DNA of 64,000 nucleotides, taken from Candidatus Saccharibacteria bacterium. GTDB taxonomy: Bacteria; Patescibacteriota; Saccharimonadia; Saccharimonadales; Saccharimonadaceae. A program made the translations under genes and the position numbers. The notes beneath the pieces were generated by a model that ran no database searches, was not told the origin of the DNA, and was given only the letters and a program-made list of their open reading frames with translations. Shown here piece after piece: positions 36,094 through 37,661 of this stretch. Location of the stretch: the NCBI GenBank assembly GCA_016789455.1, contig JAEUQU010000002.1:682001-746000 (forward strand), read 5' to 3'. Within the stretch, counting starts at the first letter, position 1; each line of letters opens with the position of its first letter.

Positions 36094-36978
36094 CTAGTTT
36101 TTGGTTTTTACTGCGGCCCGGAGCTTGGCGCTCCGTGCGCGCGGATTGGTAACGTCGTGGGTGTCGCCTCCGATCGGCCGCTTGGTCAGTACGCGCAGCC
36201 GGGCTTCGTAGCCCGAGCGCTCTTCTTCGGCAAAGAAGCGTTTGACGAGCCGGTCTTCGAGACTGTGGAAACTGATGATGGCCACCCTGCCGCCAGGCGT
36301 CAGGAGATCCGGTATCAGACCCAGCAATCCTTCGATCAGCGTCAGTTCTTCATTGACGGCGATTCGGATAGCTTGGAAGGTGCGCATCGTAGCGTCTATC
36401 GCCTTGCGGCGGGGCACTACTGCCTGGATGACGTCCGCCAGCTCGGTGGTGGCATGCAACGGACGCGCGGCGACGATAGCCTCGGCAATCCGCCGGGACT
36501 TCTGTTCTTCGCCGTAGCGCCAGATGGCCGTGGCCAAGGCTTCCTGCGACCAGTCGTTGACGACTGTGGCCGCGCTCAGCTCTGCCCGCTGGTCCATGCG
36601 CATATCCAGAGCGGCTTCGCGCCGGAAGGAGAATCCCCTTTCGGTCACATCGAGCTGGGGCGATGATACCCCAAGATCGGCCAGGATCAGGTCGAACCGC
36701 TTGCCTTCAAGTACTAAGCCTTTGGCGGCGGTCAGGAAATCGCTATGCAATAGCGTCGCGCCCTGCTGCTGCAGCGGCCCGAGTGCCGTGATGGCGTTTT
36801 CATCCCGGTCGACCAGCGTCATGGCTGACGCTGCCCTTGTGCGTTCCAGTACGGCACGGGCGTGCCCGCCGTAGCCGGCCGTCAGATCAAGGTAGCTGTT
36901 ACCCTGCTGCGGATCCAGATACTGGAGCGTCGCGTCAAGCAATACTGGGATGTGGTGGGAGGATACTTCTGGTGGCAT
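36094..36978 (-). CDS. rsmH: 16S rRNA (cytosine-N4)-methyltransferase RsmH (MraW)
   Basis: 294 aa from ATG 36978. HIPVLLDATLQYLDPQQG, the SAM site DLTAGYGGHARAVLE, DLILADLGVSSPQLD, RGFSFRREAALDMRMD and RVAIISFHSLEDRLVKRFF are all family blocks. It methylates C1402 of 16S rRNA. A GTG at 37002 is less likely, because the best promoter (-10 at 36988-36993) lies between the two starts and would give a leader of only 3 nt before 36978. Confidence 0.95.
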   Translation of the reverse strand: MPPEVSSHHIPVLLDATLQYLDPQQGNSYLDLTAGYGGHARAVLERTRAASAMTLVDRDENAITALGPLQQQGATLLHSDFLTAAKGLVLEGKRFDLILADLGVSSPQLDVTERGFSFRREAALDMRMDQRAELSAATVVNDWSQEALATAIWRYGEEQKSRRIAEAIVAARPLHATTELADVIQAVVPRRKAIDATMRTFQAIRIAVNEELTLIEGLLGLIPDLLTPGGRVAIISFHSLEDRLVKRFFAEEERSGYEARLRVLTKRPIGGDTHDVTNPRARSAKLRAAVKTKN

Positions 36979-36987
36979 ACTATTGTT

Positions 36988-37017
36988 ATAGTATGAGGCC
37001 ACCTATCTGACAGTCAA
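36988..37017 (-). promoter_or_regulatory. rsmH/dcw promoter
   Basis: Minus strand: TTGACT (37012-37017), 18 nt, TACTAT (36988-36993). The -35 and spacer coincide with the left arm of the 26-bp inverted repeat. Confidence 0.55.
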
Positions 37018-37273
37018 TGTATTTGTTTTTGCGGCTGGCCGCCGTGGCATGATTTTTGTTTTTGTGGTTGATAGAGAGTGAATGCGGATAGCGAAAGAGA
37101 GTCATCGCTGTCTGCGCCCTCTATCGGTGAGAGTGAGAGACTTGTGTGAGGTGGAGTTTTTGGGAGGTGTAAATTGCCCCATATTGTAATGAAACAATAT
37201 AGGGATAGGTGCTAAGACGAGATTGTGGTGTCCGTCTTCTGCCCACCCATTGACTGTCAGGTAGCTGGCCTCA
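36994..37273 (+). ncRNA. Candidate structured RNA or inverted-repeat element upstream of rsmH
   Basis: Arms at 36994-37019 and 37248-37273 match as inverted repeats at 24 of 26 positions; one of the two differences becomes a G.U pair on the plus strand. Inside are three more pairings: GATAGAG (37070-37076)/CTCTATC (37119-37125) enclosing GCGGATAGCG (37084-37093)/CGCTGTCTGC (37106-37115), which needs two G.U pairs on the plus strand; ATATTGT/ACAATAT (37181-37200); and AAGACG/CGTCTT (37214-37238). The wobble pairs all favour a plus-strand RNA. A 280-bp MITE-like element is the alternative. No known RNA family is recognised. Confidence 0.4.
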
Positions 37274-37602
37274 GATATCGCGCTTCATGATACCTTTTTG
37301 TTTTTTGAGGTTACCTACCCTGTTTGTATTTGTTTTGAAATACAAGTAAGACGTATTGTTAAAGTTCGTCTAACTACATCGATATGTAGCTGCTACATTC
37401 TTCCGTGTTTTTTGCTGATTGTGGTTTTTGTGTTTTGGGGTAAGGCAATTATTTTCTTTTGCGTTTTTTACCTTTACCGCTTTCCACTGACATCATCATA
37501 CTACCCGGCCAGCCGCCCTGCAATACCTTTTTATGTAAGAATTCCCATAACGCTGCCGTTTATCCCCATTTTTGTGGAAAATATGCAAATTAACAGGGAT
37601 AC
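37274..37602. other. T-rich intergenic stretch without a gene
   Basis: I see no convincing ORF. It contains two small perfect hairpins (TTGTATTT/AAATACAA near 37325-37346 and CTACAT/ATGTAG near 37374-37389) and a lone TTTTCCACA word (minus strand, near 37570). A long plus-strand frame crosses the terminator at 37603 and is not believable. Confidence 0.4.
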
Positions 37603-37636
37603 AAAAAACAGCCCCTTATGTGGAGGGCTGTTTTTT
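37603..37636. terminator. Bidirectional terminator
   Basis: AAAAAACAGCCC (37603-37614) pairs perfectly with GGGCTGTTTTTT (37625-37636), loop of 10. It ends the small gene at 37662-37871 (minus). Confidence 0.88.
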
Positions 37637-37661
37637 GGAAAGGGTGTTTCCCTTTTTGAGC

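Follow-up and report, generated by a model that had tools for sequence, protein, structure and literature searches.

What is the inverted repeat that lies directly ahead of rsmH, at the head of the dcw cluster of a Candidatus Saccharibacteria bacterium: a structured RNA, and if so on which strand, or an inserted sequence that brought a promoter with it? The repeat is located in a stretch of 64,000 nucleotides (the window), and an earlier note had proposed either an undescribed plus-strand RNA or a MITE-like insertion. An inverted-repeat search of the window confirmed the positions and the match count given there: the structured element occupies 36994–37273 (280 bases), and its arms of 26 nt each (36994–37019 and 37248–37273), which are 228 nt apart, are complementary at 24 of 26 positions. 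The further internal hairpins noted earlier are present as well, and the interior folds far better than its shuffles. Compared with 200 dinucleotide shuffles, the folding energy of the element gives z scores of − 6.4 on the plus strand and − 8.9 on the minus strand, with no shuffle as good on either strand. The element is single-copy in its own 1.44 Mb genome, where the remaining hits of the arm search are that copy's own two arms.

Helix P1 and the strand of the RNA

The structure statistics rest on 119 distinct copies of the element, whose arms align gap-free into one helix, P1. Over 23 pairs, 96.4% of the cells are standard pairs, and 22 of the 23 pairs show double compensatory changes, with 457 doubly changed cells versus a shuffle maximum of 179; when the partner strand is slid as a control, pairing falls to 20–40%. 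P1 thus covaries in relatives, which is where the earlier note had proposed to look for an RNA. Two positions are conserved non-pairs or weak pairs, G.G/A.G at one and mostly U.U at the other; the first of them falls where the 3′ strand has a GGUG that hardly varies. In a clade of mostly gut and rumen bins (L051, L052, L072, L087, L094, L131, L148 and L245), the P1 sequence is wholly different (GTTCGAATCC...) and still self-complementary.

Read on the minus (rsmH-sense) strand, the 23 pairs contain 312 G.U and 39 A.C cells, and the RNA is therefore placed on the minus strand, where the nearly invariant unpaired stretches are also G-poor. It runs from 37273 to 36994, with UGAGGCCAGCUACCUGACAGUCAAUG (37248–37273) as the 5′ strand of P1 and CAUUGACUGUCAGAUAGGUGGCCUCA (36994–37019), which includes the GGUG, as its 3′ strand. 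The earlier preference for the plus strand was based on G.U pairs. The two arm mismatches of the window are G.G and C.A on the minus strand, and the C.A is indeed a G.U on the plus strand; however, the position is a conserved non-pair in the 119 relatives. The plus-strand inference rested on a single sequence, in which the second mismatch happens to be a minus-strand C.A.

Pseudoknot, C-rich core and hairpins

The P1 5′ strand is followed by an H-type pseudoknot, in which the loop of a GUGG/CCAC-type stem pairs with a segment past an A-rich stretch. On the minus strand of the window, stem S1 is formed by GGUG (37244–37247) and CACC (37227–37230), and stem S2 by AAGACGG (37232–37238), which lies within the S1 loop, and UCGUCUU (37214–37220). 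The S2 pairing has a within-genome mean of 11.3 versus a mean of 8.6 and a maximum of 9.2 in 300 cross-genome permutations. The pseudoknot is succeeded by a boxA-like GYWCHUU motif and a C-rich strand, and then by a long hairpin that varies between copies, a pair of A-rich linkers and the P1 3′ strand. The GYWCHUU search pattern was found in 115 of 119 elements; the window copy, AGCACCUAUC at 37204–37213, is weak, and its last transcribed base is shared with an extra hairpin (37177–37204) that is seen in this genus.

The C-rich single-stranded core, ACACCUCCC-A5-CUCCACCUCACAC-AAGUCUCUC (37135–37170), is nearly invariant, an invariance that is partly ascertained and overstated by the scan described below because the copies were collected by an exact-core pattern. 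Members with an altered first or second core module were recovered by covariance-model search (L239–L242, L244 and L245), and the core is partly lost or interrupted in a few lineages (L240, L241, L242 and L244). Five loci (L064, L104, L106, L109 and L115) carry extra hairpins inserted mid-core, between CUCCACCUCACA and AUAAGUCUCUC. Mimicry of 16S rRNA by the core, as the RsmH target region or the anti-Shine–Dalgarno sequence, was rejected (P = 0.85 for similarity to the organisms' own 16S, P = 0.17 for complementarity).

The long hairpin P3 (37070–37125) varies in sequence and length, and the A-rich linkers are CACAAAAACAAAAA (37053–37066) and CAAAAACAAAUA (37020–37031). Stretches of 11 nt or longer from the element recur within the first 60 nt of rsmH in 13% of cases, versus 1.5% for shuffles; the repeated motifs are CACCACAACAACTCCAT and CAAAAACAAAAAC. 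This sharing hints, at the level of sequence, at a partner common to the element and the start of rsmH. In L008, L009, L011, L019 and L091, the P3 region and the first rsmH codons both contain an A/C-rich string of 12–18 nt, which is all or part of CACCACAACAACTCCAT.

Distribution

A congener carries the full element, 74% identical and located between mraZ and rsmH, and a nucleotide search of 101 genomes from the family recovered the element core in 74. An exact-core pattern scan of GTDB species genomes returned at least 120 stretches; among the matches listed, most titles were Saccharibacteria or uncharacterised bins, and a few matches without the downstream AAGTCTCT motif were set aside as chance. 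A covariance model of the pseudoknot-core part, searched without the exact-core filter, matched 23 of 24 genomes within the family, 8 of 8 genomes from other families of the order and 3 of 5 genomes from other families of the class, with none credible among 343 genomes elsewhere in the phylum. One match outside the class (G327) was rejected, as it looks coding and neither rsmH nor mraZ was matched in the surrounding 4.5 kb. Among the genomes sampled, the element was found only in the class to which the window belongs, in nearly all sampled Saccharibacteria (TM7) and in 11 sampled families. A search of phage records gave no match.

Surrounding genes and signals

On the same strand and directly downstream of the element is rsmH (mraW) in 117 of 117 assessable loci; in the window it spans 36094–36978 on the minus strand and is followed by ftsL, ftsI, mraY and ftsW. 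Upstream is mraZ in 110 of 116 loci. Where mraZ is gone, as in the window, L008, L050, L071 and L073, the element and rsmH remain together, and a -10-like box with a short remnant resembling the mraZ promoter, identified by eye, leads directly into the element. In the window this box is TAGTATGAT (37495–37503, minus strand), followed by the remnant, and it may serve as the promoter of the element; the remnant reads TAGTATGATGATGTCAGTGG in the window (37354–37503 region) versus TAGTATGATGTTGTCAGTGG in the congener L005. Farther upstream, a stem-loop at 37600–37640 has T runs on either strand and is apparently a terminator for both directions; it separates the element from a small upstream gene (promoter TTGACA-17-TAGTAT, 37906–37878).

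Between mraZ, or its remaining promoter, and P1 sits a motif of the form G-Y-W-C-H-TTAACAAT, which matches the rRNA boxA consensus in sequence. The strict motif A/C-G-Y-W-C-H-T-T-A-A-C-A-A-T occurs upstream of 80 of 118 elements versus 0.8 expected. Of 30 relatives, 27 also have the motif ahead of 16S (4.7 expected), so that the boxA of the element has the same form as that in the rRNA leaders of these organisms. Its distance to P1 varies, with a median of 24 nt in relatives and 80 nt in the window (GAACTTTAACAATA, 37354–37367, minus strand). A reading of the TTAACAAT motif as part of a -35/-10 promoter was rejected, since no consistently spaced -10 accompanies it and it also precedes 16S.

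All of 21 genomes encode NusB. In none of 21 genomes did a search detect the Rho RNA-binding domain (PF07497, the one Rho domain searched), which it did find in 9 of 14 controls. With Rho undetected in these 21 genomes, it is unlikely that boxA has an anti-Rho role or that the C-rich strand has a rut role, and Rho-dependent attenuation at a rut-like core was rejected for the same reason. A T-run terminator (T5 within 40 nt) follows the element in only 1 of 119 copies and is absent in the other 118, although intrinsic terminators do occur in these genomes; with Rho undetected, read-through into rsmH is therefore expected.

A TATAxT-like box lies 6–11 nt before the rsmH ATG in 51 of the 98 genomes with a usable ATG versus 4 of 98 in the control, and rsmH genes that lack it have an A-rich leader instead. 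The box implies that rsmH has its own promoter beyond the element, from which it would be transcribed without a leader, and the rsmH mRNA of these genomes therefore need not include the element. The likely counterpart in the window is TACTAT/TATAAC (36985–36993, minus strand), 6–9 nt before the ATG and directly after P1. The earlier note had instead assigned the left arm the rsmH -35 box, with a mirror copy in the right arm. The combination TTGACT, 18 nt, TACTAT (9 of 12 positions) does exist, but the TTGACT is merely arm sequence, and the mirror copy is present because the arms are an inverted repeat. Since the relatives' own rsmH promoters lie downstream of the element, the arm does not supply the promoter.

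Proposed function and alternative explanations

We consider it slightly more probable than an even chance that the element is a structured RNA which lies within the head of the dcw transcript, forms with the help of Nus factors and controls rsmH/dcw expression in cis. This cis-leader reading, made by analogy, is favoured because the layout of boxA and helix is like that of pre-rRNA, because suhB is regulated at a boxA and because UpsM is a precedent. Transcription, probably from the mraZ promoter, would make the boxA first, and NusB/S10 would bind it and keep the nascent 5′ strand near RNA polymerase, as proposed for rRNA leaders. The tethered strand could then pair with the 3′ strand made about 230 nt later to form P1 (23–26 bp), and the closed RNA would expose the pseudoknot, the second boxA-like motif and the C-rich strand, which would have to be read by a constant partner, either a protein or an RNA. 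With no terminator after the element, transcription would continue into rsmH. The element may thus act mainly in cis, tuning rsmH/dcw expression to the ribosome-synthesis (Nus/boxA) machinery. Counted against this reading are the -10-like box between the element and rsmH, present in about half of those genomes in which the ATG is usable, the variable distance from boxA to P1, the core losses in a few lineages and the lack of likeness or complementarity between core and 16S.

The main rival is a stable trans-acting sRNA, which processing at P1 would free from the dcw leader or which would be made from its own promoter; it is a real possibility, although not a probable one, and would resemble UpsM, which provides a precedent (PMC5089854). 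Such an sRNA would pair with the ribosome-binding sites of other mRNAs, or bind a protein, via the C-rich strand, whose CACCUCC and CCACCUC are anti-Shine–Dalgarno-like. The exposed strand is long and nearly invariant, the fold is compact and closed as in stable RNAs, and both the frequent rsmH promoter downstream of the element and the -10-like box that leads into it in mraZ-less genomes also count in its favour. In addition, Shine–Dalgarno-like sequences occur at about 25% of gene starts versus 8–9% in the control (464 kb of genome). However, no terminator follows the element and Rho was undetected, the association with rsmH is strict in all genomes examined, and the sampled genome contains few complements of the core.

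P1 could also be mainly an RNase III site that divides mraZ from the rsmH mRNA, with an interior of little importance. A long helix after a boxA does resemble the leader–trailer helices of pre-rRNA (PMC10250234), but the core inside it hardly varies, the pseudoknot shows covariation, the conserved mismatches of P1 and its nearly invariant GGUG exceed what processing needs, and the element is kept where mraZ is absent; we regard this explanation as quite improbable. A structured RNA on the plus strand, which would be antisense to the dcw head, is contradicted by the covariation and more improbable still, since the G.U over A.C excess, the better z score, the boxA and the synteny all favour the minus strand, against a plus strand that also folds well and turns one arm mismatch of the window into a G.U. 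The MITE-like insertion supplying the dcw promoter has next to no probability, because, despite 26-nt terminal inverted repeats, a search for the same arms elsewhere in the genome found the single copy only, the position is orthologous throughout the class with no sign of movement, the arms evolve in a compensatory manner and the relatives' rsmH promoters lie outside the arm.

The element is unlikely to be dispensable because it has been kept in the sampled families at the gateway to the division operon. A further reading, which we offer tentatively and consider rather doubtful as a whole, is that of a class-specific non-ribosomal RNA made in the manner of rRNA, i.e., with boxA recruitment and a leader–trailer-like helix, which, in the Rho-less cells of these epibiotic bacteria, would join the division operon to the machinery of ribosome synthesis and have its nearly invariant C-rich strand read by a partner. 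The element opens a way into gene regulation in a class of reduced, host-dependent bacteria with Rho undetected, and it appears to extend boxA/Nus signals to division genes; its C-rich strand, being exposed and nearly invariant, could readily serve as bait for the partner.

Relation to known RNA families

The whole window had no match in Rfam 15 at the gathering score, and the element region together with 12 relatives gave only sub-threshold chance matches. The mraW RNA motif of Actinobacteria, an Rfam family, is an RNA motif upstream of mraW/rsmH; the element was unmatched by it in the Rfam searches. RNase P and tmRNA of the element's own genome (G000) are at other loci, with the element in neither match list. 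The only 6S RNA (RF00013) match in this genome is also at another locus (C2:918320–918473) and below the cut-off, and the small bacterial SRP RNA (RF00169) had no match in 21 genomes, the element included, so a known Rfam RNA or a divergent housekeeping RNA was rejected as an identity for the element. A divergent SRP RNA is probably yet to be found in Saccharibacteria. The sub-threshold 6S RNA matches lie near the RNase P RNA gene in two genomes (G000:C2:918320–918473, L156; G102:C51:16563–16716, L155), and a divergent 6S RNA may be located there. No description of the element was found in the open full-text literature, a scope that leaves aside subscription papers, preprint servers and supplementary tables, and the main text of a large human-microbiome structured-RNA survey mentions neither these organisms nor these genes. 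The element is apparently an undescribed conserved structured RNA family, and this half of the earlier proposal stands, with its conserved structure, its covariation and no Rfam 15 match.

Comparison with known systems

EAR of the eps operons of Bacillales is a cis-acting antitermination RNA inside the head of a long operon, and the element is likened to it by description alone. To our knowledge, EAR has not been described as boxA-linked. In suhB of Enterobacteriaceae, a boxA in the 5′ region of a protein gene is a regulatory site for Nus factors, with control through translational repression and Rho (PMC5725501). The element likewise has its boxA in the 5′ region of a protein gene, whereas suhB control uses Rho, which was undetected in these genomes. 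We know of no description of suhB with a large structured RNA.

In bacterial pre-rRNA, boxA is followed by a long leader–trailer helix, which must exceed about 17 bp, and NusB-bound boxA has been proposed to tether the 5′ strand (PMC10250234). The element resembles a miniature of this layout, with a boxA and a long-range helix of more than 17 bp closing over the RNA between its strands (PMC10250234); in contrast, it encloses about 230 nt of non-ribosomal RNA, precedes protein genes and has a variable spacing between boxA and helix.

UpsM is an abundant sRNA derived from the 268-nt dcw/mraZ 5′ UTR of Rhodobacter sphaeroides, and the part of its description used here states that it precedes mraZ, has an intrinsic terminator at its end, requires both Hfq and RNase E and is restricted to Rhodobacteraceae (PMC5089854). 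In the same part of that account, which allows a comparison by description rather than by sequence, no boxA or closing P1-like helix is noted, and UpsM differs in lying before mraZ and having a terminator, whereas the element usually lies between mraZ and rsmH and has none (PMC5089854). The two are alike in RNA size, position at the head of the dcw cluster, sense strand and read-through into the operon, which for the element is expected (PMC5089854). By this analogy, UpsM is the nearest functional precedent for the element at a dcw locus.
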